NCBI RefSeq assembly: GCF_000003815.2
Contig: NC_049995.1
Location: 4,527,237-4,591,236 of the forward strand
Direction: 5' to 3'
DNA from: Branchiostoma floridae
Taxonomy: Eukaryota > Chordata > Leptocardii > Amphioxiformes > Branchiostomatidae
Length of the DNA stretch: 64,000 nucleotides
Positions 3 through 47,816 of this stretch are shown here, in pieces; within the stretch, counting starts at the first letter, position 1; every line of letters starts with the position of its first letter. The position numbers were made by a program, and so were the translations under genes. The notes beneath the pieces were generated by a model that had not been told where the DNA came from, did no database searches, and saw only the letters and a list, made by a program, of their open reading frames with translations.

Positions 3-3000
3 ATCGCCCTGGCGGAAGGCTACCACCTGTCAGACATCCTCAGACGGGTGACCTACTTAACAGGAGACGAATCCTTGGTAAATGAGTATACAGACAGAGT
101 GAACAAAATCTTTGATCGTTCACCTGTACTGTCGAGGCAATCAGCTCTACTAATACTGCGGGATGATATTCGGAAAATAGAAAATGATAAGCCACTGACT
201 GGAGAACTCCTGGATGTCAAGAAAGAAATATATCGTTTTCCCAGCGTAGCCGTTGATCTGTTGAGTGTTTTCTGCAGTATAACGGTCCCCAGTATATGGG
301 GCATGATAGAAGAATTGTACAAGACGCAAAGGATAACTCACGAAGATGCCCACCATTTGACTGTACTAATCAGCATCTCAGCGGAGCTACGGTTAAGAAC
401 GTACACTGCCAATGGAGGACAGGATAATAGACTGTCTCCCCTCACTAGAATGGAAATCCAACTAGATAAACATGACATAGATGACACTTTCGTTCAGACA
501 GTTTTCTACGTACCGGACTCAAAAATGCTTTTCAGGTACTATTACACTTCCATCCCACTAAAAAGCTGCATTCTGGATGTAGTTGTAGAGACAAATCAAA
601 CGAAAAATATATTTCCAACACCCATTTTTGATACTTCATCTCTAACAAGAGGCCGAATGACACACCAACTGCTCCATTTCGATGCATCCATATATCATTT
701 GGAAAAAGCTCTTAAAGAGGTGGGCAGTGACCAAAGAAAGCAGTTTGAAATACTTTTCGAACTAGGCGATACCTTGCATAAACGCGGTAACTTTGAGAAA
801 GCGATCAGCTACTGCAAACGGTCACTCAGAGTTAGAAATACTATCTACGGAAGTAAAGTGCATCCAAACATTGCCGCATTGCTTGAAAACATCGGAGCAT
901 GTTGTTGTAAACTCGGCGACCAGAGTAAGGCCCTCATTCATTTAGAACAGTCACTAAAGATCAAGAAAGCTCTGTATGGTGAAACAACAGCACATCCCGA
1001 AATTGCCATATCTTTACACAACATTGGAGCATGTTGGAGTGAGCTTGGAAATCAGAATAAAGCTATAAGTCTCTATGAACAGTCACTAAAGATGGGGAAG
1101 GCTATCTATGGTGAGGAAACTATACATGTCAACATTGCTTCATCTTTAAACAACATCGGAGCATGCTGGAGTAAATTTGGTAATCAGAGTAAAGCTATAA
1201 GGTATTACGAACAATCACTGAAGATGACAAAAGTTATCTACGGTGAAACAACAGCACATCCCGATACCGCCTCACTACTCAACAACATTGGATCATGTTG
1301 GAGTGACCTTGGTGATGACACGAAAGCTATTCGTTTCTACAAACAGTCACTGAAAATGAAGAAGGCTATCTATGGGGAAACAGTTGACGGTGTACATCCA
1401 GACATTGCCTCAACACTGACAGGCATCGGAACATGTTGGATAAAACTTGGAAATCAGAGGAAAGCGATCAGTTATCTTGAACAGTCATTGAAGATGATGA
1501 AAGTTATCTATGGCGAATCAGCAGCACACCCCGACATTACCACATCGCTGACAGGCATTGGATCATGTTGGAGTGACCTTGGTCATGACAAGAAAGCTAT
1601 TAGGTACTTCGAACAGTCACTTAAGATGAGTAAAGGTATCTACAATGAAACAACCTCACATCCCGACATTGCCTCATCTTTAAACAACATTGGATCATGC
1701 CTTAGAAAACTCGGGGATCAGAGAAAAGCCGTCAATTATCACGAACAGTCACTGAAGATGGCCAAAGCTGTCTATGGCGAAACAACAGCACATCCCAATA
1801 TTGCTACATCACTGAACAGCATTGGACTATGTTGGAGTGAGCTTGGCGATCAAAGGAAAGCCATCAGTTGCTACGAGCAGTCACTAAAGATGAGGAAAGC
1901 TGTCTATGGCGAAACAACAATACATCCCGAGATTGCGTCATCACTTAACAACATTGGAAAATGTTGTAGTAAGCTTGGCGATCAGAACAAAGCCATCAGT
2001 TATTACGAACAATCACTGAAGATGAGTAAAACAATCTATGGCGAAACAGCAACACATCCCAACATTGCCACATCACTAAACAACATTGGAACATCTTGGA
2101 GCGAACTTGGTGATCGGATGAAAGCCATTCGTTATTATGAGCAGTCACTGCAGATGAAGAAAGCTATGTATGGCGAAACAACAGCACACCCCGACATTGC
2201 CTCATCACTACACAACATTGGAGCATGTTGGAGTGAGCTTGGTGATCAGAGTAAAGCTATCAGATACAACGAAAAGTCATTAAAGATGAAGAAAGCTATC
2301 TATGGCGAAACAAACTCGCATTCTGACATTGCTTCATCATTTAACAACATTGGAGCATGTTATAGTAAACTCGGTGATCAAAAGAAAGCAATCAGTTATT
2401 ACGAACAGTCACTTAAGATGAAGAAAGCTATCTATGGCGAAACAACAGCACATCCTGGCATTGCTTCATCTTTAGACAACATTGGAGTGTGTTGGAGTGA
2501 GCTTGGCGATCAGAGTAAAGCAATTAGGTATCACGACCAGTCGCTGAAGATGACAAGAACTATTTACGGGGAAACAACAGAACACCCCGACACTGCTTCA
2601 TCACTTCACAACATTGCAACATGTCTGCGAAAACTTGGTGATCATGTTAAAGCTATCGAGTATTACGAACAGTCACTGAAGATGAAAAAAGTTATCTATG
2701 GTGAAACAACAGCACATCCTGACATTGCTTTATCACTTACCAACATTGCAACATGTTGGAGAAAACTTGGCGATCAGAGTAAAGCTATCTGTTATTACGA
2801 ACAGTCATTAAAGATGGTGAAAGAAGTCTATGGAGAAACAACAGCACATCCCGATACTGCCGCATCACTCAACGACATTGGAAACTGTTGGAATCAGATT
2901 GGAGATCATAGGAAAGCTATCAGTTATTACGAACAGTCACTGCAGATGAAGAAAATTATCTATGGCGAAACAACAGCACATGCTGGCATTGCCTCAACTT

Positions 3001-3431
3001 TAAACAATATTGGAGCATGTTACAGTAGACTCGGCGATCAGAGGAAAGCTATCATTTATTACGAACAGTCACTGAAGATGAGTAAAACAATCTATGGCAA
3101 AACAACGGCACATCCAAACATTGCTTCAGCGTTAAACAACATTGGAACATGTTGGAGTAACCTTGGCAATCAGAGTGAAGCTATTAGTTATTACGAAACG
3201 TCACTGGAGATGAAGAAAGCTATCTATGGCGAAACAACAGCACATCCTGACATCGCTTCATCACTTAAAAACATCGGCGCATGCTGGTATGAACTTGGTA
3301 ACCAAAGTAAAGCTATCAAATATTACGAACAGTCATTGGAGATGCTGAAAGTCATCTACGGGGACAACATGGCACATCCAGACATTGCATCAGTAGTGAA
3401 AAACATATTATTATCTATAAGTGCCCTCTAA
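3..3431 (+). CDS. TPR-repeat protein, kinesin-light-chain/nephrocystin-3-like repeats (5' partial)
   Basis: One uninterrupted frame runs from the window edge to a TAA at 3429-3431, about 1142 residues. The GTG at 48 is not a real start because the frame stays open upstream of it. The first ~200 residues match nothing I recognise. One divergent TPR follows (around residues 215-270), then 19 tandem 44-residue units starting with an HPxIA motif and a final half unit. The unit core is NIGxCW-x2-LGDQ-x-KAI-x-YYEQSLKM, a helix-turn-helix TPR of the KLC/NPHP3 type with a longer loop (44 rather than 34 residues). TPR arrays are protein-protein docking scaffolds; many lancelet TPR proteins carry an N-terminal signalling domain, which here would lie upstream of the window. 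No intron or membrane segment is visible. Function is not assignable beyond scaffold. Confidence 0.85.
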   Translation: MALAEGYHLSDILRRVTYLTGDESLVNEYTDRVNKIFDRSPVLSRQSALLILRDDIRKIENDKPLTGELLDVKKEIYRFPSVAVDLLSVFCSITVPSIWGMIEELYKTQRITHEDAHHLTVLISISAELRLRTYTANGGQDNRLSPLTRMEIQLDKHDIDDTFVQTVFYVPDSKMLFRYYYTSIPLKSCILDVVVETNQTKNIFPTPIFDTSSLTRGRMTHQLLHFDASIYHLEKALKEVGSDQRKQFEILFELGDTLHKRGNFEKAISYCKRSLRVRNTIYGSKVHPNIAALLENIGACCCKLGDQSKALIHLEQSLKIKKALYGETTAHPEIAISLHNIGACWSELGNQNKAISLYEQSLKMGKAIYGEETIHVNIASSLNNIGACWSKFGNQSKAIRYYEQSLKMTKVIYGETTAHPDTASLLNNIGSCWSDLGDDTKAIRFYKQSLKMKKAIYGETVDGVHPDIASTLTGIGTCWIKLGNQRKAISYLEQSLKMMKVIYGESAAHPDITTSLTGIGSCWSDLGHDKKAIRYFEQSLKMSKGIYNETTSHPDIASSLNNIGSCLRKLGDQRKAVNYHEQSLKMAKAVYGETTAHPNIATSLNSIGLCWSELGDQRKAISCYEQSLKMRKAVYGETTIHPEIASSLNNIGKCCSKLGDQNKAISYYEQSLKMSKTIYGETATHPNIATSLNNIGTSWSELGDRMKAIRYYEQSLQMKKAMYGETTAHPDIASSLHNIGACWSELGDQSKAIRYNEKSLKMKKAIYGETNSHSDIASSFNNIGACYSKLGDQKKAISYYEQSLKMKKAIYGETTAHPGIASSLDNIGVCWSELGDQSKAIRYHDQSLKMTRTIYGETTEHPDTASSLHNIATCLRKLGDHVKAIEYYEQSLKMKKVIYGETTAHPDIALSLTNIATCWRKLGDQSKAICYYEQSLKMVKEVYGETTAHPDTAASLNDIGNCWNQIGDHRKAISYYEQSLQMKKIIYGETTAHAGIASTLNNIGACYSRLGDQRKAIIYYEQSLKMSKTIYGKTTAHPNIASALNNIGTCWSNLGNQSEAISYYETSLEMKKAIYGETTAHPDIASSLKNIGACWYELGNQSKAIKYYEQSLEMLKVIYGDNMAHPDIASVVKNILLSISAL
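861..3374 (+). repeat. 132-bp coding tandem array, 19 units
   Basis: The TPR array repeats at DNA level with a 132-bp period. 2514 bp separate the first and last HP codons, which is 19 units plus 6 bp; the extra 6 bp encode a two-residue insertion in the unit starting near 1260. Units are alike at DNA as well as protein level, which suggests recent unequal exchange or gene conversion. Assembly collapse or expansion is possible in such an array. Confidence 0.9.
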
Positions 3432-9500: not shown

Positions 9501-12500
9501 GAATCTATTACATTTTCAATATATTACTACAAACTGTAGAGCAAAGTTGCTTTAAGTGTGAATCTATCAAGTTTCTCCTTCTATTGCAAAATTATGTTCC
9601 CATGAAAATGAAACAACTTACTTTCAGCAGCTTAAAGCCATGCCTACGTTGGATTTCATACCTATGTGCATCACTGTGTTTTCTGTAGTTACCTTCCTTT
9701 TGTATCTGACTAAGAGGTTCAAAAAGTAAATTAAACAAAAAAGGCTGATTTACCTTGGAGCAGGTAGTATGTTGACCTTGGACACGAGTAGTGACTGTAG
9801 TACGTCCACATGAAGTATGATGGAGGCTTGTCTGTGGTAACCTTCCTCGTAACCCTGCCCTCCTGAGTATGTCAGCTTCAGCACTGCATCCACTGGCTGG
9901 GGGTAGAAGCAAAAAGTACATATAAAGATAGTCCCATAGGCTTTTTGAGGCCATAGGGACAGTGGGTTGTTATCCACTGTGTCTAGGGTACGGTATTGGA
10001 CAGCAGACCCAACCCTCCACCCAAAGCAAAGTCAGGAGAGATCATCACTGACAAAGACAAACAAATGGCACGTTGGGTAGAACATTACTTGGACATTTAC
10101 TCAACAGAAAACTCAGTCTCACAAGATGCACTTGACAATATTGAAGACTTCTCTCTGTCCTCGCAGAGCTGGACGCTGAACCTACCATTGAGGAGTTGAG
10201 TAAAGCCATTGATTCCATGTCAAATGGGAAAGCGCCTGGTGAAGACAATATCCCAGCTGAGATCATAAAGAGTGGGAAATCTGTCTTGCTGGAACCACTA
10301 CATGAGCTACTACGTCTTTGCTGGAAAGAGGGCAAAGTACCTCAGTCAATGCGAAACTCCAAGATAGTCACTCTGTATAAGAATAAGGGAGACCGTACGG
10401 ATTGCAACAGCTATAGAGGCATCTCTCTGCTAAGCATCGTGGGAAAAGTCTTTGCCAAAGTGGTCCTTACCAGGCTCCAGGTTCTGGCAGACCGGGTCTA
10501 CCCAGAATCCCAGTGCGGCTTCCGAGCCGAGAGGTCCACAACTGACATGATATCCTCCGTACGTCAGCTTCAGGAGAAGTGCCGCGAACAGCAGAGGCCA
10601 CTATACATCGCCTTTATCGACTTGACGAAGGCGTTCGACCTTGTTAGCAGAAGAGGCTTATTCCAACTGCTGAGGAAGATTGGTTGTCCCCCACAGCTGC
10701 TAGACATCATCATCTCCTTCCATGAGGACATGAAGGGTGTGGTCAGTTTCGACGGGGAAACCTCTGAGCCCTTTGCAATTCGGTCAGGTGTGAAACAAGG
10801 GTGTGTGCTGGCCCCGACCCTGTTCGGGATTTTCTTTTCTCTGCTGTTGAAGTCTGTATTCGGTCACTCAACTCAAGGTGTCCACCTACACACCCGCAGT
10901 GATGGGAAGCTGTTCAACCTGGCCCGACTGAGAGCCAAGACAAAGGTCCGCTCAGTACTGATCAGGGACATGTTGTTTGCCGACGATGCAGCACTGGTCG
11001 CACATGTTGAAGATGAGCTGCAACAGTTGCTCAACCAGTTTGCCCATGCGTGCAGTGAATTTGCACTGACCATCAGCATAAAGAAAACAGTAGTCATGAT
11101 CATGGGCCAGGATGTTCCACAGCCACCCGTCGTCACCATAGGCTCGGAAGTGCTTGAAGTGACAGATCACTTCACATATCTTGGATCGACGGTTACTAGC
11201 AACCTGTCTTTAGACAAGGAAATTGACAGACGGATAGCTAGGGCGGCAGGCGTGATGACCAAGCTCGGAACGAGAGTGTGGAACAATAGCCACCTGACGC
11301 TTAACACAAAACTTGAAGTATACCGTTCTTGCGTACTCAGTACGCTTCTGTATGGTAGTGAGACCTGGACTACATATGCCAAACAGGAGAACCGCCTTGA
11401 AAGCTTCCATCTTCGTTGCTTAAGGCGCATTCTTGGGATTTCTTGGAGGGACAGAGTACCAAACACCACTGTTCTGGAACGCTCCTGCTCCCTGAGCATC
11501 CATCTTCTCCTCTGTCAGCGACGTCTACGCTGGCTGGGACACGTATCCCGAATGAAAGATGGACGCATCCCAAAGGACATCCTGTTTGGTGAACTAGCGA
11601 CAGGAAAACGGCCAGTAGGACGACCGGCACTGCGCTTCAGAGATGTCTGTAAGCGTGATCTGAAGCTAACTGACATTGACCCAGCCAGCTGGGAACAGAT
11701 TGCAGCAGACCGCAACAGATGGCGTCACACGGTCAAGGATGGTCTTGCAAAGGGCCAGGAAAGACGTACAGAGCATCTTGAGTCAAGGAGACGCAAACGC
11801 AAAGAGAAACCGCAACAGGGGAACCCCTCTGCCTTCATATGTCCAAACTGTGGCCGCGACTGCCATGCCAGGATCGGTCTACAGAGCCACAGTAGACGCT
11901 GTCAACCACCGTGACCTGATACAGAGCGCTACCATCATCTGGAAAGATGGAAGGATGCCTACTACTAGGGTACGGTATTGGACAGCAGACCCAACCCTCC
12001 ACTTCCAACGTCTTTCCCCTCCCCAACAAAGTCAGGTACCCATTTTTACACCTGGGTGGAGTGAGAAAAGTCATGGCACAAGATCGGTAGCATGATGGGA
12101 TTTGAACCCCGGACCTCTGGCTTCTAGCCAAATACCCTGCAGTAACCGGTAGAAGTACACACTCATAATATTGCTTCTTGTTAAAATACTAAACACTATG
12201 TTATAATTTTAAGACCCTATATCCGAACACAAAATAAAGCGCTTAAGAACTAACACTGGTCTTGTTTCTTTGAAATTGGAAAATCAATTGATAGAAAGAC
12301 ATTGGTATTAAGTCGTAAAGTTTACCTGTGCTTTCTCCTCCTCAGGTTGTTGTGCCTCCATGGGTGGAGCAGTCATGGCAGCCGTTCTCATGGACCGGGG
12401 TCTGGTCTGGGGAGACTTCTTGGGTGAACTGTGTCTACTACTGGGTTCTAAAGGAACAAACAAAGATGACAAGAAAAGTTGACAGGTGGTCTGGGGTTCT

Positions 12501-18500: not shown

Positions 18501-21500
18501 CCATTAATTGTGACAGACAGTCAGACTGAATGATAACTCCTGTCACCACAGTCCTACCTGACAGCTAACGCAGGATTGCCCATTTTCCTGGCCGTGTACA
18601 CCATCTCGTGTAGAATCCGCAGCTGTATCGCTGGCCACCCGTACGTGTACTCTCGCGGGAACTGTCGGGGGTCCAGCGTCAAACTATAACCATCCAAGGT
18701 CTCCTGTAGGAGATGGTAGCACTGGACAGCAACAACCAAAACCATGTTTACTAACGTTTAAAACTATTAAGTGTATCCATAACAATAACATCTGAGACAC
18801 TGTAGGTGTTAGGACCTGGAATGATATGCAGCCAAAATGTACTAATTCAGAAACTAATAATATTCTATAATATTTCCTTTTTTTGTGAAAAGCAATATAC
18901 TTTAAGATGCTACTCTTAACTTAACATGCATCCCTTAGTACAATAATGCATTTTTTTACACCACTATAAGTTGCAGATCTTTCTCAATTTAGGGCAATGC
19001 TGCTTAGCTATTGCTCGTGTTTTTATCGAAGCTCACCGGGTTTTCTTGATAAGATACTAGGTTCCTTTAAGTGCTAAGCAAAATGTTAAGAAACATGCAG
19101 TAAATCATAACTTACAGAGTTCCATGCTGGGTTGGGGTTGTTTGGGGACACACATTGCATGGCGGCCACTCTCTTGAAGAAGGCAGCTTTTCTCTTGAAG
19201 CCTATCTGTTCGTACAGCCCTGACAGTGTGTTGTATCTCTGGATCTGTGGAAAAGCAATGCAAAATCTTTAAGTTACAACAGTTAATATTACATACATGT
19301 ACAATGCTGAATATGAGGAAAATTGTTATTAAACATATTATGCCAAAAAAAAAGAGTCTAGATGTATCAATATAGGACCATCTTCCTACACAGAGACCTG
19401 GCCTATACAGTGTATACCTTTGAAAGGCTCTAGAAGATGGGGCTAAGGTTTCCATGGCCACTTTTGTGAGCATTAACTCCAACTCAGAGACCAGCGTTGT
19501 CAGAACACAGCCTCTACCATCACAAACAACTTCAGATGTGCAAGATGCGGCAGAGACTGTCATTCCAGAATTGGCTTGTTCAGCCACCAAAGAAGATGTC
19601 AACCATGGCCAAAACCCCTCGTCTCTTTAGACGGATGGAGGCCAATGAGTGAGTGACTCCAACAGTTAACCACTCAAAGAATTGATTTCTTTACGTAAAG
19701 CTGATTCTCTGATTGGCTGCCAGTTAGTTACAGGCCACACCCACAAATGTTGAAACCTCAGCTTGGTTTAGCAGACTTCTAAAATGTACCATTGTAAAGG
19801 TCGAGAGCAAAGCTCTGCGTAGGAGAATGAAGAGAAGAAGTCTTAATGAGTTTGTTTGTTTTCTTACCTTATCTTCGTCTGTGAGTTGAATGTTGATGTA
19901 CACCATGTTCTGGAGAAACTCAGACGCCTGAAGATTTTTCTATATTATTTGTAATAAAAATATTGTTATATCAGCACCAGTTTTAAATACATGTAGTAAT
20001 TGAACGTCATTCTATGTACATCAGTTAAAACTGAAAAAAACATTAATGACTAAACAAAAAAACATCAATGACTAAACAAATCTGAGCAGTTTTGCACCAA
20101 AAGTATAAGACCTGATGCATAAATTGTATGAGCCTATGAGATAGTATGACTAAAAAATATACTGAGGTATCTTAGTCTATGTTTTTGTTATGCAATTTAC
20201 ATGAACTAAACATATATTGTAATAAACAATATGTACGTTTACACTGTAGTGGTACTCATTAACAGTAACTACTCAATGGTTGCTTGTACATGTAATACTA
20301 ATAAGCTAGTTCACAGTAACAAGTCTGCATGCACCTAAGTCAAAGGTTTAAGGCCCATACAGTTCTTTGTCCAGACATGTTTTGCTGGAACCAGGTGGAT
20401 CATGTTTACGTCATAGGGGCCATAACCTATGACCCTACCCACAATTCCATGGAACTATGACAAAGCTATAGAAGAACAATCCGCAAAGAAGGGAATGAAA
20501 GAAGGAGAGAGAATGTGGAGGAGGAGACTTACCCCCTGCATAAGCATTACCCGACAGGCCTTTACACTCGCCTCCATTTCAACTACACCAGCATAGGAGT
20601 ACTGGGGTGGGGGAACGAAGGAAAGAAATACGGAGGAAAAAAGAAAACGGGGGTAGCCATAGTGAAGAAAATAATCAAGAGATTGAAATAGAAGGAAAGA
20701 TAACAAGCATGTCGGTGAAGAGTATGACAAACATTGGAAGAAAAATCATGAAGTGAAGAAAAAATAAGCCCAAATATGTGGAATTTGTGAATAAAAATAA
20801 ATGAAAGATAGGATGAAAACAGGATGAGAATGAATGATAATCAGGATGCAGCAAGAAGACAAGGGAAAAGGGTTAATTCCACATAAGGTTTGGATTATAG
20901 TACATTTACATACAAGTCAAGGATGACCGTTACAGACTTTTCTCCTGTTTGAAAGGAAAATTTAAAAACTGTGTGCTGCCCAACATGGTAAACAAACTGA
21001 TTGCTTTGAGGTGAAAAATCTGTAACTTGGGATGGTCTCCTTTCATATGTCAAGTTTACAGATGAGACTGGTGAGGCCACTGGCAAGGACATTCTGTGGT
21101 TTATCTTTCAAAAACAAACAGAATTAAACGTTGTATCACAGTGTTTTTTTTCTTGAATAAAATTACATGATAGAATTTTGTGTGTAGTTTCAATAACTTG
21201 TTAATAACATTCTTCCCTTGCGAAAGGACTACATTTAAATATTGACAATATAGTAATCAAAGTAGAAATGTCAACTTTGTTAAAATCCTTCTAAAACATC
21301 TATAAAAGATTACGTATGCATTTTCCATGTGTTGAAAAATTGTAATTGGGACACTGCTTTATTGCAACAAAATTTGACAAAAAAATGAACAATTAGGCTA
21401 GCCCCGGGGGCATCGCCAAAAAATGAGCTATTTGTGAACCAAGAAATGTCCTTCCCTGTGACCTCCCATGATGCATTGCTACCACTCACCCGTTGAGTTA

Positions 21501-24500
21501 TCATAATTCTAGTGGCTTTAATGATGCCTTCCAACTCTATCACTGCTGCATTCTTGTACTGAACATGCAAAAATAAACATCAAACCTCCATGCAACAAAG
21601 AAAGAACGCATGTACTGTAAATTTGCTAATCTTCGCGGTGGATTTATTTTGCAAAATTAGATCTTTTAGTTTCACAGTTGTAACAGCACTGTCGTACAGT
21701 AGTAATACATCGAAAATGTATATTATATATTATTCGAATTCACTCATTCAAAAGTGTCAAGAATTTCAAAGAAAAGCCACCGGAAAAGTTTCAATATCTT
21801 CAATAGCAACAAGGTATGGCAAGCTATACATGTATGCTCAACACAAATGACAATGTCAATGCATAATGATAATAAATGTTGAATAATTGTTAAATTTAAT
21901 GATGATAGTTTAACAAATGCTACTTAAAACTATTAATCAATTGTAATACTCTTCCTCAATAGACTGCAGATTTTCACATATTGTACTGTAATTCACTTTG
22001 TCTTCTCGGTACCAAATTTTCACGGTCTGAGAAAATTTAACTTGTTCTTGGAACTACATTGTAAATGTTCACTGTCGCGGCAGGTGCGCATAAAAAAAGG
22101 CTGTGATTTATTTGTCATCGGTAATGATAAGTTCACGTTAAAGTCGTCACAGTGAAAACCGTGAACATAACAGTACATTGAAAAAATCAGGAATTACAGT
22201 ATTTAGAATGACTTCATCATATATTTTGCAAGCAAAGTATACTAACCGTTTCATGTTCACAATTCAAATTCAATTTTTTCAACATTAGGTTTGAAAAATT
22301 CACACAAGGCCCCTTAACAACCTACCTTGCTGTACTGAATGAGAGCCTCCTTGTATTTCTCGATGATCTCATCAGGCGACAAACAGTTCTTGGCTTTGCC
22401 GTCTTGCAGGAATTCTGCTGTTGCCATTGGTAACCCATTAGGTGACATCGTTGCTGAAAAAATGAGAGAAAAAATGATATTAAAACCAAGCTCTTTAAAG
22501 AAATCTGAGCACCAACCAGCCTAGGCCACGAGCCAATTTTTCATGCCCATGGTATTGAATGTGAGATACATCTAAAGCCTAGAAAATCATGTTGATCAGG
22601 CTGATACGTAGGGAATCTCTATTATTTTTCCTTAATATCTGCTGAAGTGATCAGCAAATACAGCTGAACAAGGTAAACCTGAAGTCATAGAGATATACAC
22701 TATGCAAGTACAAATCTACATTACTTTCAAATTGTTTTTTTAAGGTCCGTTCATTTTTCTAATACAACAGAAATAAGGAAAACATTTTGGAAAACAATTC
22801 TACAATGTTTTCATCACAAAAATGTCAGATCCAAAATTCTCTACTGCCCAAAAGGCAAGGTTTTTAGAGTCAGTTGGGTAACAATATTTTTTCCTAGGCC
22901 TTATAGTATTCTCAAAGCAATTCAAGCAATGCTTAAAATACTAGACTAATTAGTATAATCCATGCAGGCATGTAGAATAAAATGAGAGCTTCTACAGTTG
23001 AGCCAATACTACGTGTAAGCCAAACTCCTGCAAAATGAACATACAAGTTCATTAGTTGAAAACCACCACCTTTATGGATGCAAAATGTTCCAATCATTAG
23101 CCACAATTATTCAATGTTTAAGCTTCTAGTTTGGACATAAACAGACCAATCACGTCAGCACACATACAGTTTAGTACCCTAACTGGTCATGTCTGCTGAC
23201 CAATCAGCACAATACTTAAACAAGACAGTAATGCTGATTGGATTACTTCTGACCAATCAGAAGGCCTCATAGTCATACTTGTGAAAACAAAGGAGTGTTA
23301 GTCTTTTTAGAGTTTACATACAATTATGTTAACGTATACTTTACTGAACTATATATTTTACAAGTACAGGGATATATACGTTATAAATGTACATGCGGGA
23401 ACCTTCACCCATGGACAAGACCACAACCACGAGCATGTACAGTACAGGGATGTTGTACATATACAGGCATTGTTTCCCCTCACCAGGCATCCTAACACCA
23501 CACCCGATGCATGTGTGATGGTAACCTCTAAACGCAGGCTTCTCAGCAGGCATTTAGATTTTGCCTATTTTGTATTATGCACTGTTTTGTGACTCAATTG
23601 CAGTCAATTTTAAATGGCATTCTTAACATCAACTGTTGTTGAACATTTGATCAATCCGATCACAGTAAGCAATAATGAAAACAGAGCATGATTTAAAAAA
23701 AGGAACATCACAATGCCTGCAAAGAAGCCTGCTGTAGAGGCTAAGACAGGACTCACGAGGGGCAGAAACATCAAGGAACTGAGACACTGCGGTCCATAAC
23801 GCGCTTCCAGTAGATGTTAGGCGACTGTCGCTCGCTGAAAAACCGCCCTCCGTTTGTTTACAAGTATACATACACATATATGATAACTCAATATATGAAT
23901 GCAGGGCTCGAAATTCATTTTGGGGATTAGGTGCACTGGAGAACCCAGCTTAAAAAGTTGGGTGCACCAAAACATTTTGGGTGCACCACTTAAATCTAAC
24001 TAATAACCTAATAATAAAACTTAGTTTGAGCTATCAAATTCTTAAACAAGTACAATGACAGACATTTTTATTACCTTTCTAACACTTAGATGTCAAGAAT
24101 ATGATGTATACTTTGATATCTTTACATACATAAACCTAAGAAAATACTTGGGTGCACCCTGTGTACCCGGTACCCACAGAAAATAATTGGGTGCACAGCT
24201 CCAATTTTGGGTGCACCTGGGTGCACATGCACCCAGTATTTCGAGCCCTGGAATGTATATATATAGCGTTTTGTCTCAGTGCAGTCTGATTTGTGTAGAA
24301 CATAGAAAACACATTTTACCACACTTTACCACATAAGGATGATACAACAGAGACAGACAACATTATACTAGTACTTAACCTTCTCCATACTAAGGGACTC
24401 AAAGGGAGCCATTTGGCATGCACCGATTTGTATTGGTTATGGGTTAGACAGCAAAGAAAGGTTAACAACAAAAGATTGACAACAATACTGTAACAAAAAC

Positions 24501-27500
24501 TTAGTTTTAAATCATTACATTTTCATTAAATATACAACATGATCCTTCTTATTAAAATCAACACCAATTAAAACCATAAAACACAACAAAAAATAACTGT
24601 TAGTTCAGTCATGACCCCATAGCAGACATCTGATGATGATTGAGAACTGTTAGTTTGGTCATGACCCCATAGCAGACATCTGATGATGATTGAGAACTGT
24701 TAGTTCAGTCATGACCCCATAGCAGACATCTGATGATGATTGAGAACTGTTAGTTTGGTCACGACCCCATAGCAGACATCTGATGATGAATATGAATTGT
24801 TAGTACAGTCATGATCCTATAGCACCATGCCTCACCTGTCCTAGTGAGGGTTTCGCTTCTCCTTCTATCTACTGAGGGAACAATACAAACAAAACAAAAC
24901 AAAACCTCAATCTAAATCCAAATTACCACAATGTTATACCCTGTAAAAGAAGTATCAACTTGAAAGTTGAAACAATTAAACTTTATCAAAGCCAATTAGC
25001 TGTGAAAATAAAATTGAAAATGGTACGAGTTGCTCAGACATGACCACATAGCACCATCACTAACCTGCCCTATTGAAGGTCCCACTAACGCTCAATCTCT
25101 CTGATAACAAAAGATCATATAATTGTAGACAATCGAAAACACAAAAACTCAATTTCAATCTAAATGATTGCCCCTAATGTTAAAAACTTTTCTTCCAAAA
25201 AAGTCTGGTTGAAAGGGGAAGAATGGATAATCTTCAAAACCTGAAAGCAAAACAGTAGTAGGTCAGCCATGACCCCATAACTCCATGACTAACCTGCCCT
25301 AGTAAGGGTTTCACTACGCCTTCTCTCTGATGACAACACATTGGAAACAAAACAAGAAAATGATTCAAATAAAAATCGCCATAAATGTTACATGATTTAA
25401 GCATGTAACAAAAGCTGATGTAAAAGAACAAATTCGGAACGATTATCTAAATCAATCAGTAGCAAGTGGTAGGTCAGCCATGACCCCATAGCACCATAAC
25501 TCACCTGCCCTAGTGAGTGAGCCAGAGAGCTTTCTCTCTGACGTGACTTTGGGGCTGCCGCTGAAGGACTGGTTACGGGGCATAGGGGGCCTTGTGGTGC
25601 CATGTGGGTACTGGACAGTCACAGATGCAGCACATGTTCCCTCAAAAGCAGCTGGAAAATATCGAATAAATAGTTTAGTGAAGGAGTGAACAAGTTTCCA
25701 TAAATGCAGAAATGTTTGCAGTGGTTTTATGTCCACATTTTCCGTGAGGCAGTCTTAACCACAAAACTTAAAACCACCGCAAAAACTTCGGCATTACAGT
25801 ATGTGACTAGTGTATGGCACTACCGTGAACTTAAAACCACCACGAACACTCCACTTTCCAGCTAACGTGAAATTACATCCCTTAAATGCATTTACAGTAT
25901 TCAAAGCTTACCATGTGCACAGAGACACAACTCGTTACTGTTAACTAAAACGAAACTGTATGAGTGTAGTGTAAAAGTGCTTAAAATCGCCACCCTGAAA
26001 ATATGTGTCAATTTTAATGCAATAATGGTCCCCTGAGTAATCTTCTTGGGCAGATCTGACTAATTCATTAAGGATTTATGTAAAATTCCACCATTGCATA
26101 GTGAGCCTATGACATAATTTTTGTGCTCTCATTTCTAATCAGATTTTAAATATCAAAGATGAGACGATATACTAACCAGCGAGCCAGAGCCAGTCGTTGG
26201 CAGACTTGAGGATGTCAGCAGAAGCCTGGTAGTGGAGCAGGGCTTCCTGTGTGAGTCCTGCCAGCAGACACAGGTCTCCAGAGTACTTCCTCATCCGGCC
26301 CTGGCAACGCTTCCGAAAGGCCCTGAAAACACAAAATAGGGTTTCATTAATTAATGATATTAGATTCATATTTAGTTACCTCAGTAAATGGAGGTGTTGT
26401 TTTTGGTTTGTTCAAATTGTTGTCTTGATACTGTCATGAGTCTGAGAACAAAGAAAGCGTTGCATATGTTAGATTTAGTTAGAAACGTATATAGTTTTCA
26501 TGGAGGTGCTGTTTTTGATTTGTTTTCTGATGCTTGAGTACTACCTATAAATGTACCTCATCTGGCCCTGGCAATGCTTTCTAAAGGCTCTGAGAACACA
26601 GTAAGGGTTTCTCAAATGTATAGATTCATAAAGGTAATAGCCTTTATAACATTTATCTACCAGGTTACAAAATTCCACCACATCTCCAGTGCAGCACCCC
26701 TCATCTAAGATATGTAAACATGCATTGTGGGACCGCGTGGCACGATCGGGAGCGCGTTGGTCTCAGGCCCGAGAGGTCCCGGGTTCAAATCCGCTTGCCG
26801 TGTCACCGATCTTGTGCCCTTGGGAAAGGCACTTTACACGACTTTCCTCACCTAACTCAGGTGTAAATGAGTACATAGCTGCGGCTAGTGGAAGTGACAG
26901 GCCTTTGTGGTGGTGAAAGGCCATAGGGGCATGTTCGGGCATGACGCACCCGCCATGACACATGAGTCAGGGGTAGGAGGAACCCCTTGCATCCTTGGTC
27001 GGAAGTCCTCCTAGGAGACGGAAACTCCAAACAACAAACCTGCATCTGCTGGGGCCGTCTTACACGTTGCATACAGTTGCCCCTGTAGGACTAGTGCGCC
27101 AGTGGACGAGAGGGTGGAGAAGGACGTGCACACCCCTCCTTCACATTAAAAACCCAAGTGCAGGCCAGGCAGATGGGTCGCCTTAAACCCGTCTGCCTAC
27201 CATTGTCCTCCGAGACAGACGGATGCCAAAACAAAAACATGCATTATACTGGGGGATGTGGTGCTGGAGATTATCTTTAGATGCAATCTTTGGGGTGGCA
27301 AATATATGTAAACTGGCAGAATTACTAACTAAGGTTTGTAGATGTTATAGTTTGTTTTCAGCTTGTTTGTTTGTTTGTTTGTTTTGAGGTGTGAGCAAGT
27401 TTGGCCTGGGTCCAAGCTCATTCCTGGTCTGAGTTGTTAATAGGAAGACTGGCAGGATGCAAAGGAAACGAAGGATGGTGGAGTCATGGCCCAAACTCAG

Positions 27501-28222
27501 GAACCTAAAGATGTCATGTGCTTGAGAGTGGAGCATGTAATGGGTGTTATATTTTGTTACTGGGATGTATAAAGAAATATGTGAGTGAGTGAGTGAGTGA
27601 GTCAGTCAGTGAGTGAGTGAGAGAAAACCCACCTTGTTTCTGTATCAATCCCAATCAGATCTTTCTTCTCGAATGGTGCAAGAAGCAATGGCAGCTTTTC
27701 TGACTTGTCGCTTGCCAAACGTTCCGCCTGCAACCTCTTTGATTCTAGGACCCAGAAAAGGGAGGCTGCAAATTCCCGCACAGTCTCATCTAGCGAAAAG
27801 CTGTCTTCCACACTGGAATAATATACCATGTTTGTTTTCGCGTTGGTCCCGTTCTCTTGCTTCATGCCGAAGATCAAGCAGCGGGAATCGTACAGCGTGG
27901 AGCCGTAGAGTTCCTTTAGTAGGTTGTATCGCTCTTGTATCGCACCGGTGTCAGCGGCGGTCGCGCATTTCCCAACAACCAACAGTCCCATGACTTTGCG
28001 ATGAGCCTGAAACTCGCCCCAGACATTGTTCTCCACGGGGGAACTCTTCTTGTAACGTAAGCAGAAGGACCTCTGGGAATCTGGTAAGCGTACGTGGCGA
28101 CAGCGGGTGATGCGGTCAAAGATGTGGTTGAACGTTTTGGCGTTGATTTGACCGGCGGGCTTCACTACCACAAGCACGGCCTGGTGATCCTCTGCAGTTT
28201 GCTCGTAATCAGCGATACTCAT
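6323..28222 (-). CDS. TRAPPC9: Trafficking protein particle complex subunit 9 (TRAPPC9/NIBP, Trs120 orthologue)
   Basis: Complete coding sequence in 21 core exons. Coordinates from the 5' end: 27633-28222, 26177-26322, 25505-25651, 22326-22453, 21490-21558, 19868-19927, 19116-19244, 18558-18721, 17467-17643, 16572-16717, 15968-16053, 14539-14665, 13713-13941, 12939-13174, 12326-12447, 9754-9896, 9265-9369, 8554-8706, 7658-7743, 7060-7283, 6323-6499. Every junction has AG/GT sites and matching phase; the sum is 3444 nt, 1147 residues plus stop, close to human (about 1148). Conserved blocks recalled from human include AEDHQ and ENNxWGxFQxHRKV near the N-terminus, [58 protein letters not shown] and [14 protein letters not shown]9 is a TRAPPII-specific subunit acting in Rab1/Rab11 activation and Golgi/recycling traffic; the vertebrate protein is also reported to bind NIK and IKK-beta. 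The start is the ATG in [14 protein letters not shown], aligned with the human N-terminus. The 3' boundary of exon 8554-8706 is the least certain junction. Confidence 0.95.
6501..6560. repeat. (AATC)n microsatellite touching a TRAPPC9 acceptor
   Basis: About 13 AATC units with one variant. On the minus strand the run reads (GATT)n and ends only at CCCCCAG, the acceptor of the terminal exon, so the microsatellite itself supplies the polypyrimidine/branch-point region. Confidence 0.85.
8280..8570. repeat. Three tandem ~120-130-bp copies overlapping a TRAPPC9 exon end
   Basis: Three copies share GGATATCATTTTC, GGAGCATGGGAAACA and GATTCAAACC-type blocks separated by poly-A/T stretches. The right-hand copy runs into the 3' end of the exon at 8554-8706, so the last codons and the inferred donor (TTTCT|GTTTCC) belong to the repeated unit. 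That donor is weak, but its phase matches, and the peptide length between W and the next exon matches human by recall. Confidence 0.65.
9983..10020 (+). repeat. Left 38-bp target-site duplication of the LINE
   Basis: The 38 bases beginning CTAGGGTACGGTATTGGACA are repeated exactly at 11965-12002 and bracket the LINE. The sequence is the body of the interrupted SINE. Confidence 0.85.
10021..11964 (+). mobile_element. 5'-truncated non-LTR retrotransposon (LINE), reverse-transcriptase part
   Basis: The main frame at 10196-11914 encodes 572 residues with RT motifs in order: [23 protein letters not shown], motif [10 protein letters not shown], motif [12 protein letters not shown], motif C FADDA, thumb [11 protein letters not shown], then [10 protein letters not shown] and a C-terminal CCHC-like finger (CPNCGRDCH ... 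SHSRRC). A piece of the same ORF lies at about 10030-10155 in another frame, so a frameshift occurs near 10155. The N-terminal endonuclease region is missing, consistent with 5' truncation during target-primed insertion. It is a dead copy in the antisense direction of a TRAPPC9 intron. The clade was not determined. Confidence 0.9.
11965..12002 (+). repeat. Right 38-bp target-site duplication of the LINE
   Basis: Exact copy of 9983-10020, directly after the LINE 3' end (GATGCCTACTA). Confidence 0.85.
14327..14506. mobile_element. pogo/Tigger-like MITE, 180 bp
   Basis: Terminal inverted repeats CAGTGGAAGCC...GGCTTCCACTG, similar for about 22 bp and ending in TGCA on both sides, are flanked by TA dinucleotides at 14325-14326 and 14507-14508. 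A TA duplication and CAGT termini are typical of pogo-type non-autonomous elements. Lies in a TRAPPC9 intron; no coding capacity. Confidence 0.8.
14867..15165 (-). mobile_element. LINE 3' fragment (second family)
   Basis: The minus-strand frame reads [25 protein letters not shown] and SLGSFKERL, the usual C-terminal end of a metazoan RT ORF. Upstream [10 protein letters not shown] is in another frame, so a frameshift separates the two pieces. Degenerate fossil in a TRAPPC9 intron. Confidence 0.75.
15207..15400 (-). repeat. Decayed duplicate of the exon 14539-14665 acceptor region
   Basis: On the minus strand TTGTTGTACAG is followed by codons for CVISEGIVF and a stop, copying the acceptor and start of the exon at 14539-14665 (SVMSEGIVF). 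Neighbouring blocks (ACCACTTTTAGGCAATGAAA, GAGATAACTGTTACATG) are also present twice between 14700 and 15400. The stop rules out a normal cassette exon. Confidence 0.65.
17083..17342. repeat. ~19-bp minisatellite (GGTTAGCTGCCGGATCC type)
   Basis: About 13 degenerate units built on GTTAGCTGCCGGATCCG, including three near-identical units with GGAATTTGATTAGCTGCC. Lies in a TRAPPC9 intron. Confidence 0.9.
17957..18490. repeat. ~99-bp direct duplication bracketing a CAGGG...CCCTG element
   Basis: 17957-18055 and 18392-18490 are nearly identical (AGCTATCATTGGTTGATT through TAACTGCTATATGTCATG). Between them, 18064-18387 starts CAGGGATAAACAAG and ends TTGTTCAACCCTG, with internal GGGCAAGTG repeats, like a hAT-type MITE without an obvious 8-bp duplication. 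Confidence 0.7.
19498..19652 (+). mobile_element. LINE 3' relic with zinc-finger end
   Basis: The plus-strand frame reads [18 protein letters not shown] then QRRCQPW, the same C-terminal finger as the LINE at 10021-11964. Only the 3' end remains. Confidence 0.75.
20533..20601 (-). CDS. TRAPPC9: TRAPPC9 duplicated 69-nt exon, version A
   Basis: Acceptor ...CCCCAG|TACTCC and donor CAGGGG|GTAAGT bound a 69-nt phase-0 exon encoding 23 residues ([16 protein letters not shown]..., ending LMQG). It is a paralogue of the exon at 21490-21558, with the same length and phase, and shares the human-like AGV and EA-VKA-RV positions. It splices in frame to the next exon (ASEFLQN). Including only one version gives 1147 residues in total, so the pair looks mutually exclusive; using both would add 23 residues. 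Confidence 0.75.
21490..21558 (-). CDS. TRAPPC9: TRAPPC9 duplicated 69-nt exon, version B (canonical-like)
   Basis: Acceptor TGTTCAG|TACAAG and donor CAACGG|GTGAGT bound 69 nt in phase 0 encoding [11 protein letters not shown]...MITQR. This version is closer to human (YKNAGVIELEAC) than version A and directly follows QYSK of the exon at 22326-22453. Confidence 0.85.
21615..22199. mobile_element. Possible TIR element with CTGTAA ends
   Basis: CTGTAAATTTGC at the left and GGAATTACAG at the right, with TA on both sides (21613-21614, 22200-22201). The interior has TTCGCGGTGG and TTCACGG motifs common in marine-invertebrate repeats. TIRs are short and imperfect. Confidence 0.4.
23902..24250. mobile_element. 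hAT-type MITE, 349 bp
   Basis: Inverted ends CAGGGCTCGAAAT and ATTTCGAGCCCTG enclose GGGTGCACC-rich sequence. GAATG lies directly outside both ends, a possible partial target duplication. In the TRAPPC9 intron upstream of the exon at 22326-22453. Confidence 0.75.
24596..24825. repeat. 50-bp minisatellite, about 5 units
   Basis: ATGACCCCATAGCAGACATC recurs near 24611, 24661 and 24711, with changed copies at 24761 and 24811, a 50-bp period. The GACCCCATAG block is also the intron sequence beside each micro-exon donor at 24836, 25065 and 25294 and exon 3 at 25505, so the minisatellite grew from that flank. Confidence 0.9.
24836..24871 (-). CDS. TRAPPC9: Candidate TRAPPC9 cassette micro-exon m3 (36 nt)
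   Basis: TTGTTCCCTCAG|TAGATAGA at the acceptor and GGACAG|GTGAGG at the donor bound 36 nt in phase 1/1 encoding [12 protein letters not shown]. Third copy of the exon 3 tail; best pyrimidine tract of the three. Its intronic flank continues into the 50-bp minisatellite at 24596-24825. Confidence 0.55.
25065..25100 (-). CDS. TRAPPC9: Candidate TRAPPC9 cassette micro-exon m2 (36 nt)
   Basis: TTTGTTATCAG|AGAGATTG at the acceptor and GGGCAG|GTTAGT at the donor bound 36 nt in phase 1/1 encoding [12 protein letters not shown]. Same origin and frame as m1 but diverged in the middle. Confidence 0.55.
25294..25326 (-). CDS. TRAPPC9: Candidate TRAPPC9 cassette micro-exon m1 (33 nt)
   Basis: TTGTCATCAG|AGAGAAGG at the acceptor and GGGCAG|GTTAGT at the donor define 33 nt in phase 1/1. 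After the G left by exon 3 it reads [11 protein letters not shown], a near copy of the last residues of exon 3 ([12 protein letters not shown]). There is no stop and inclusion keeps frame. The acceptor pyrimidine tract is moderate. Splicing is inferred. Confidence 0.55.
25701..25900. repeat. Dispersed CGTGAA/TTACAGTA-type repeat
   Basis: TTAAAACCACC recurs twice and the segment ends AAATGCATTTACAGTAT, similar in style to 21615-22199. No clear TIR. Fills the intron between TRAPPC9 exons 2 and 3. Confidence 0.4.
26557..26589 (-). CDS. TRAPPC9: Candidate TRAPPC9 33-nt copy of the start of exon 2
   Basis: TGTGTTCTCAG|AGCCTTTAG copies the acceptor and first codons of the exon at 26177-26322. The copy diverges where a potential donor ATGAG|GTACAT appears. 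The 33-nt piece reads [10 protein letters not shown] in the correct phase, so inclusion would duplicate the AFRK-CQG-MR motif in frame. It may equally be a decayed duplicate. Confidence 0.4.
26727..27234 (+). mobile_element. Full-length tRNA-derived SINE, 508 bp
   Basis: The tRNA-like head has TGGCACGATCGG (A-box-like, 26738-26749) and GGTTCAAATCC (B box, 26782-26792), followed by a long body. It is bracketed by an exact 11-bp target duplication AAACATGCATT at 26716-26726 and 27235-27245. It inserted between TRAPPC9 exons 1 and 2, antisense to the gene. Confidence 0.85.
27581..27622. repeat. (GTGA)n microsatellite beside the exon 1 donor
   Basis: GTGAGTGAGTGA with a GTCAGTCA interruption, starting about 10 bp inside the intron from the TRAPPC9 exon 1 donor (27631-27632). 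Confidence 0.85.
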
Positions 28223-45390: not shown

Positions 45391-47816
45391 GGTAGCACTA
45401 TTGACTATTGCATGTACACTTATATCGCGCCCATGCGCATGAATAGTAAATAGCTGACTTACTTGCCATGGTCATAATCAGATCTAAAATAGGGAACACG
45501 CGAGAACCAGTGGATAAAATTCAAGCATGCGCCCTACCCCCAAAAGGATGGCATATATAAACAACGGTGGCCTAAACAAACTGACCTAACCAATTATCTA
45601 ATTTTCACACATTAAGGACTTTCTATGACTTGAGAGCAGCTTTGCATTTTTTCTTAGTGGATACTGTAGAAATCAGTCGGAACGAATTTTCCAAAAATAA
45701 TTTCATATTAGCTAATCAACTAACAAGTTAAACGCTTACTAGGTCGAGGCTACAAACTCATTAATTGCGGTGACATAACGACCGACCGGTGACCCAACGA
45801 TGACCTGCCCCCAAGAGGTGAAGGACCTGTTTAGAACACGATGACCTAAAAAAAAACCGGACCTAACAAATGAACTAATAGATCAAGGAGGTTAAAAGTG
45901 TTTTTTAACCTCCTTGAATAGATAAAGTCCATAGCACACATTGAGGACCTTCTAACGACCTAGCTTTGGAGTAGTCTACATCATCGGCGTCAGCTCTGGA
46001 GTAGTCTAGCCATTTCTTTATTGAATACTATAAAAATCATTCCGAGCGATTTTTACAAAACAATCTCGGTGTAGAAAGTAGGTCAGATAATTAGCTCACA
46101 AGTTAATATTGAGTGGGTCACAAAGTCGGAACCAGTACATAACTTCTGGACTTACTACCAGAGGCTCTCTGTAGTAGCATCTTTGAAATTCGTAGTCATT
46201 ACTGTATTGAATCCCCAACGTATATTGAACCCTATTGTCCATAGATTATATCGGGTAATTAGTCTAATTTGAATCACTTTAAAGTCTTTTGTCAAATTTA
46301 AACCAGTTTTGTCACTTATTCAAACGAAAATTCTGCTTGGGGAATGGATAAAGGTATTTTTAATTCTGTTCTGTACATGTAGTCTTGTACTTAATCTTTG
46401 GTTTAAGCAAGGAGCTTTTGGTTTAAGCAGAGAAATCGGCCTGGACAGTTTTGTTTGTTTTGCGGTCATTTCTGTGTTCCTGTGGCGTTTTATAGGCAAA
46501 CGTTATCAAATAGCCCCTACCTACTCATCTGATCGGAGATTATCATTCAGTGACTTAATACTCATTTTGTTGGCTACGTTGGCATATTTTTTTGATGTAA
46601 AAAAGCACTGGTAATATTTTACTAGTGCTGTGCGTTCTCCAGCACGTGCACCCGTAACACATGTTTCAAGCAGTAGCGGTGACGCCCCCTACCCTCCGAA
46701 AAATATGAACGCCCCCCCCCCGCGCTCCCCCCCCCCCCAAAAAAAAACTCAAGCCGAAGCCCTTGTGACTGGCCAAATACTTTTTTCACAAACTTAGGAG
46801 GTTTTACCTTGATAAAACAAGGGAGTTATATAACCTCATTGCATCAACAGAAATCCTCCTTGCCCAAACCTTTCCCCTGTTTACATTTGGGTTAAAATTC
46901 TCTGTGTTTGGCTTCTGTGCAATCTGCATCCAGGAGTTGAATGTTTAAATTAGACAAATAAGTGACTCTTTTGTCTCTAAATACAGATATATACCATATC
47001 CATGCGCAAGAATATTAGATAGATGACTTACCTGTACCTGGTTTACCTGGATCAGGTAAAACGAACAGGAAACACCGCTTATGGTATGTTTGTATCTGCA
47101 ACAGTCGCTAGTTATGGTTATGTAAATCCTTGTATGTCCACGCCCTCTTTGTCTGTTGTTATTTGCATTGAAACAGCGGGTCTTCACGGGTTATCTCTGA
47201 AACGGCCGATAATGGGTAAACAAAATCCCAGCATGCTCCCCTGGGAATTAATGATTCCCCCAAGAGGTGACAAAAGGCTAAAAAAAAAACTGCCCAAACA
47301 AGTGAACTAAATGTCATGCATATCCTCAAAGACAATTTATCTCTGATTGAGTCCTATAGAAATCTAGAGTTCCACGAAACACATACAGGGTCTTCCCCAA
47401 ATAACCAAGGCTTATTATGGGTTATCAAAGACTTTAGTGTCATGGACTATACAAATACAGCTCAAAACATAACCTTCTTGTCAAAGGTAAAAATTGAAGA
47501 ATGCGTCCGTGTTGTACTGTGTTAAATGATCATGACCCCGCTATTTGACATGCTGAAAAATATAACCTTGCCATTCTGGGAAGGTAACAAGGAGCTTGTT
47601 CAGAACGAACTCTAATCTCCAAGCAGACCCCACGGAGCATAAGATAGTATCAAATGCTGTCAGAGGAATAAAACCGGCCTAGGAGTGTGTTTAGCTTACT
47701 CTCCAAACAGAGGTTAGGCTCCGGCTGTTTTTTAACGGTTTTTTAGTCGTTTTTATCGGGCTTTCTATTTTGTCATTTTTTCTTACTGTGTCCGGCCTAA
47801 CAAAATATACTCTCCA
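45391..47816. other. Intergenic, repeat-derived
   Basis: Degenerate blocks recur (CCCCCAAGAGGTGA at about 45810 and 47260; ATACTATAAAAATCA / ATACTGTAGAAATCA at about 46030 and 45660), suggesting an old duplication. The 101-codon frame at 46309-46614 is hydrophobic but has no supporting family. A poly-C/poly-A tract lies at 46710-46747. Confidence 0.5.
45884..45916. repeat. 33-bp foldback with 7-bp flanking direct repeat
   Basis: CAAGGAGGTTAAAA, a short loop, then TTTTAACCTCCTTG. AATAGAT sits directly on both sides (45877-45883, 45917-45923), like a target duplication. Confidence 0.75.

Follow-up and report, generated by a model that had tools for sequence, protein, structure and literature searches.

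Duplicated and very small exons have been described in several settings that bear on the locus reported here. In human tandem-duplicated exon substitution events, the duplicated exons replace one another and are mutually exclusive (PMC9741552), and in a model of intron gain by tandem genomic duplication an exonic segment containing AGGT is duplicated, with latent sites that may add coding letters in an "imprecise" gain (PMC3443670). Inclusion of microexons is regulated, typically in neural tissue. Microexons are limited to 3–30 nt by a strict definition (PMC8627023) and to at most 51 nt by a broad one (quoted in PMC8627023; also PMC12409088), and 2,731 mouse genes have been counted as containing them (quoted in PMC9741552). 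The TRAPPC9 gene has a 27-nt microexon at chr8:141,436,713 of hg19 (PMC8627023). A mouse Trappc9 microexon of at most 27 nt is Srrm4-independent, with relatively high inclusion in N2A cells (PMC11283458), TRAPPC9 is among the genes with misregulated microexon inclusion (PMC7545264), and exon 5 of mouse Trappc9 is alternatively spliced (PMC9596773).

The window analyzed here is a 64-kb stretch of the genome of the lancelet Branchiostoma floridae. The host gene, on the minus strand, is TRAPPC9 (Pfam TRAPPC9-Trs120, E 3.1e-19, joined exons 1–6, residues 191–375), and exons 2–6 used as a query matched at this locus only (five matches, nine candidates scored) in a genome of 513,431,437 bases in 431 contigs. 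The end of exon 3 (its final 33 nt), together with the donor and ~35 nt of intron, recurs three times in the following intron, with start-to-start spacings of 211, 229, and 229 bp:

25505..25651, minus strand: TRAPPC9 exon 3, the parent, phase 1/1
25327..25504, minus strand: spacer I0, from the parent donor to the copy-1 acceptor, 178 nt
25294..25326, minus strand: mini-exon copy 1, 33 nt, donor gttagt
25101..25293, minus strand: spacer I1, from copy 1 to copy 2, 193 nt
25065..25100, minus strand: mini-exon copy 2, 36 nt, donor gttagt
24872..25064, minus strand: spacer I2, from copy 2 to copy 3, 193 nt
24836..24871, minus strand: mini-exon copy 3, 36 nt, donor gtgagg
24595..24824, minus strand: 50-bp minisatellite, 4.6 copies, resembling the post-donor intron block
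22326..22453, minus strand: TRAPPC9 exon 4, the next exon after the array, phase 1 in and phase 0 out

What was copied is only the 3' 33 nt of the exon and its donor, not the whole exon with both splice sites. All three copies are stop-free and in phase 1/1, and each codes for 11–12 basic residues with Ser/Thr. At 33, 36, and 36 nt they exceed the strict microexon limit and fit the broad one; the sequence CAGTAG offers copy 3 a second acceptor, which gives a 33-nt form (24836–24868). On most of these points the original prediction of a threefold copy of the exon-3 tail and its donor was accurate: copies, donors, lengths, phases, and peptides all agree, and the frame is indeed kept for any set of copies included, as all eight inclusion combinations are open through exon 6. 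It had also counted one to four R-x-x-S motifs. The motif is found in the parent, copy 1, and copy 3, and that count is too high by copy 2, whose first Ser is preceded by R at −2 and not at −3. Kinase control is speculation.

We consider it somewhat better than an even bet that the array consists of three optional (cassette) mini-exons derived by a tandem duplication that crossed the border of TRAPPC9 exon 3 and intron 3. If so, the copies would be spliced into transcripts, perhaps independently of one another, their inclusion may be regulated, and the added residues may change what TRAPPC9 does. Like human tandem duplicated exons, the array would be a set of alternative, exon-like copies made by tandem duplication inside one gene; those exons substitute for each other, whereas the lancelet pieces, taken from an exon's last 33 nt and donor, would add cassettes. 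In the intron gain model, too, duplication converts a site within an exon into a splice site and so creates an intron, and the AG of the array corresponds to an exonic TCAG. In that model an exonic AGGT segment is duplicated, whereas the lancelet segment spans a true exon–intron border, which would add an exon plus an intron per event. Very small optional exons close together are also seen in the chordate Agrin Z microexons (PMC12445529) and the consecutive microexons of RPS24 (PMC12686416, PMC11162997), but in the accessible portions of those papers they are not described as copies of a neighboring exon's tail.

The original prediction knew of no description of such an array. For the lancelet this stands among the open-licence papers searched: none joins TRAPPC9 and amphioxus, and those on amphioxus microexons and alternative splicing show no such array in their accessible portions. 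It does not extend to the gene as a whole, since a regulated TRAPPC9 microexon has been described in mammals. The open-licence literature on TRAPPC9 microexons is, in its accessible portions, all on mammals, and that on tandem or duplicated microexons and on partial exon duplication holds, to the same extent, no case of this kind. The available text of PMC12626424 and PMC7821500 does not mention TRAPPC9, and that of PMC7467316 and PMC8391980 gives no information on the exon. The new aspect is that the tandem duplication took in the tail of an exon and would yield mini-exons that add to one another.

The mammalian microexon very probably lies in the same intron as the array, flanked by the orthologues of lancelet exons 3 and 4. 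This placement was assembled from the coordinates and exon numbers of several papers and not from direct alignment. The variant c.1037G>A, at Gly346, maps to 141,445,327 (PMC8068822) and reads C>T on the reference, so human TRAPPC9 is on the minus strand; a deletion of exons 8–9 spans 141,313,791–141,403,956 (PMC8068822). By these published coordinates, the human microexon is 8.6 kb 3' of Gly346 and ahead of exons 8–9. A splice mutation, c.1024+1G>T, is known (PMC6396715), and c.937 lies in human exon 3, in which an unnamed splice mutation has also been reported (PMC8683625). The two splice mutations are presumably the same, which would put Gly346 at the start of human exon 4, just after the c.1024 border. 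That border is in phase 1, as is the exon 2 donor at the lancelet exon 2/3 border. We take the residues around human Gly346 to match the AAFEG that opens lancelet exon 3. Very likely, exon 5 of mouse corresponds to the human 27-nt exon. The mammalian and lancelet elements would thus share a gene, very probably an intron, and small size, but the former is a single 27-nt exon with inclusion data and the latter three pieces of 33–36 nt copied from the neighboring exon. With ~20,000 genes and 22 introns per gene, and 2,731 genes with microexons in mouse, the rough prior for an array in an unrelated gene to share its intron with a mouse microexon is ~0.6%; such loops attract small exons, so a fair prior is above this figure.

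Beyond the array, TRAPPC9 has two versions of exon 5 (20533–20601 and 21490–21558), each 69 nt and phase 0/0, with acceptor scores of 4.2 and 3.9 and donor scores of 5.4 and 6.3, respectively; they are probably an old mutually exclusive pair. A partial copy of the start of exon 2 (26556–26600, 87% over 45 nt) has an acceptor score of 2.7, giving a frame-keeping 33-nt piece (26557–26589) with a weak donor (gtacat, 0.4). A plus-strand open frame of 589 codons lies within a TRAPPC9 intron (10145–11914), and we take it to resemble a reverse transcriptase. Positions 888–3392 hold ~19 copies of a coding-like tandem repeat of 132 bp, which presumably resembles TPR repeats.

The sequence of the exon 3 end suggests how the array may have arisen. 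The exon ends in TCAGAGAGAAAGC...GGGCAG followed by the donor gtgagt, and its last 37 nt (25505–25541), the likely source of the copies, start with TCAG. The same TCAG directly precedes all three copies. The original prediction was that each copy had gained an upstream AG; because TCAG already stands at this position in the parent exon (25538–25541), the AG was most likely copied and not gained, and the new feature of the copies is most likely the T-rich intron stretch before it. The duplicated segment would have run from just inside the exon 3 end into the intron, carrying the true donor along, and its left edge would have put the exonic TCAG behind a T-rich intron, creating a usable 3' splice site. 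A ~229-bp unit of mini-exon plus intron would then have been copied again, so that transcripts could include none to three pieces, each adding 11–12 basic, Ser/Thr-containing residues in frame.

The order of these duplications is suggested by the spacers. With the first 40 nt excluded, I1 and I2 resemble each other at z 4.3 (0/300 shuffles), and still at z 3.6 (0/300) when the last 20 nt are also removed. I0 reaches z 2.8 against I2 (0/300) and 2.2 against I1 (1/300), scores that 22/300 and 46/300 shuffles, respectively, attain without the last 20 nt. As I1 and I2 are alike over their length and I0 is marginal, the proposal that copies 1 to 3 arose by duplication of a mini-exon plus intron unit is well supported, and the first, border-spanning step is only probable. 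The reverse order, in which a mini-exon came first and was later fused to exon 3, is conceivable. A transposon or dispersed repeat was also considered and rejected, the array matching only itself in the genome (one candidate scored).

The prediction that these exon-like pieces have plausible splice sites agrees with their scores, which fall inside the range for the gene's own exons. Under a generic splice-site matrix, the acceptors of copies 1, 2, and 3 score 2.1, 3.1, and 4.7 and the donors 4.6, 4.6, and 7.3. For comparison, the top candidate sites that we chose for the gene's other exons score 1.8–10.4 as acceptors, save for exon 6 (0.4 or below), and 2.0–8.5 as donors, save for two exons with none above −1. 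Copies 1 and 2 have acceptors at the low end of this range. By eye, the last 25 nt upstream of each copy contain no Srrm-type UGC just before the acceptor.

Such pieces are rare elsewhere. A scan for acceptor–donor pairs (acceptor at least 2.0, donor at least 4.5, 20–60 nt apart) across 17,866 nt of sense introns, whose ends are approximate, found seven pairs, four of them in the array (one per copy and one more from the second acceptor of copy 3); the antisense strand has none, and 300 Markov versions of intron 3 gave a mean of 0.29 pairs, 0.02 being in-frame and open. In a genome control of twenty 10-kb stretches read on both strands (one each from contigs C1–C19, of 17–35 Mb, and a second from C17), nine donors had an in-frame open piece, and nowhere did three fall within 800 nt. 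The minus strand of the window has four such donors, three belonging to the array and the fourth at 45463, and the plus strand two. A looser scan of intron 3 for a counterpart of the mammalian microexon outside the array returned three pieces, one of them copy 2 and two of them copy 3; copy 1 escaped the scan, which thus was not exhaustive. The array is not a coincidence. Since the three copies share an origin, the control scans rule out coincidence and not neutral copying, and since donors and open frames were inherited by copying, the three pieces are not independent evidence.

Neutral tandem duplication is the strongest competitor, and we regard it as a real possibility that falls clearly short of probable: copies of an exon tail, unspliced or rarely spliced, would owe their likeness to gene conversion or to chance, in a stretch prone to duplication that would also have made the adjoining 50-bp minisatellite, of related sequence. 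In simulations of neutral decay with the copies treated as independent, all three remain intact in 0.5%–14% of runs depending on the assumed rates, and the 14% obtained without indels means that three intact copies are not very improbable. The distribution of gaps points the other way, gaps being far commoner in the spacers than in the exon-plus-donor block. The intron block from +1 to +35 is gap-free in all six pairs. The exon piece aligns without a gap between parent and copy 1, and its only gaps among the three copy/copy pairs are of 3 nt; the gaps of parent/copy 2 (2 + 1 nt) and parent/copy 3 (3 + 5 + 5 nt) may be a matter of alignment choice, as the lengths differ by 3. The three alignments of spacer middles contain 13, 11, and 10 gaps. 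Also against neutrality, AG, GT, frame, and T-rich tract are kept in all three copies.

At the protein level, copies 1 and 3 differ at five nucleotides but one amino acid over ten codons (P = 0.023, uncorrected, one of six pairs), a signal that does not survive correction for six pairs, and the other five coding comparisons indicate no constraint (P 0.11–0.61, with copy 2's single inserted codon excluded). The intron block is moreover more alike than the exon piece in five of the six pairs, so that any constraint may not act on the protein, or the copies may be undergoing gene conversion. We judge these results to give moderate support to use of the copies and weaker support to protein-level selection.

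A broader version of the cassette reading would make the variable loop of TRAPPC9 a chordate-wide site of microexon control, with the lancelet array, made by partial-exon duplication, as its expansion into a graded dial, on which each tissue includes none to three basic cassettes of 11–12 residues, possibly by way of a Nova-type YCAY minisatellite, to tune TRAPPII or NIK/IKK binding. We think this unlikely as a whole. In either version of the cassette reading, the added residues would fall in a length-variable part of TRAPPC9. Exons 1–6 have no match among solved structures at E 0.001, and a longer joined model matches two yeast Trs120 sequences at E 2.4e-5, followed by two further, unrelated chains at E 0.72 and 1.1. 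The Trs120 alignment consists of two blocks (query 193–260 and 380–502), each weak alone (0.41 and 0.72); between them lie 119 residues in the lancelet model versus 177 in yeast, and hence the loop-bearing stretch varies in length. In Ciona Agrin, 18 YCAY sites follow the Z microexons in the intron and some clusters act with Nova (PMC12445529). The lancelet minisatellite is the source of a local YCAY cluster after copy 3, with 13 sites in 230 nt, a count reached by 15 of 6,377 minus-strand windows of the stretch (five of them at this place) and by none on the plus strand. At a scale of 100 nt the cluster is ordinary, its best count of six being reached by 73 of 6,390 windows, and intron 3 overall is not enriched, with 16.1 YCAY/kb versus 17.5/kb over all TRAPPC9 introns. 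As a possible Nova link the cluster is a lead and no more. The densest minus-strand YCAY windows are at a (TCAC)n tract on the gene strand (27581–27621), just past the exon 1 donor.

That the copies are chosen one at a time, perhaps through RNA structure of the repeated post-donor element, appears very improbable. All copy lengths are multiples of 3, so there is no frame pressure for exclusivity. Predicted folds do show the post-donor element paired with the donor region for the parent and copy 1, but copies 2 and 3 are predicted to fold otherwise, and the fold z-scores (−0.75, −1.99, 0.00, and −1.65) include none that is convincing. Paired with other copies, the elements of copies 1 and 3 form duplexes that beat 10/10 shuffles; the copy 2 duplex energy is beaten by a shuffle, and the parent is barely above the best of ten. 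With duplex and fold results thus mixed and unconvincing, we did not adopt RNA pairing as the means of an exclusive choice. Finally, false copies made in assembly are scarcely credible: the array is known from one assembly, with a single match, but its copies differ by 18%–30% in the exon piece and by many spacer gaps, and mis-assembly makes no such differences.

Under the favored reading of optional mini-exons, this is one locus at which the steps are still readable: a single border-crossing tandem duplication could make an in-frame mini-exon with both splice sites at once, which could then multiply. The probable coincidence in location with the mammalian TRAPPC9 microexon offers a test case for whether small optional exons recur at the same tolerant protein loop. 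Were the graded dial to prove true, border-spanning duplication would be a one-step route to new regulated mini-exons.
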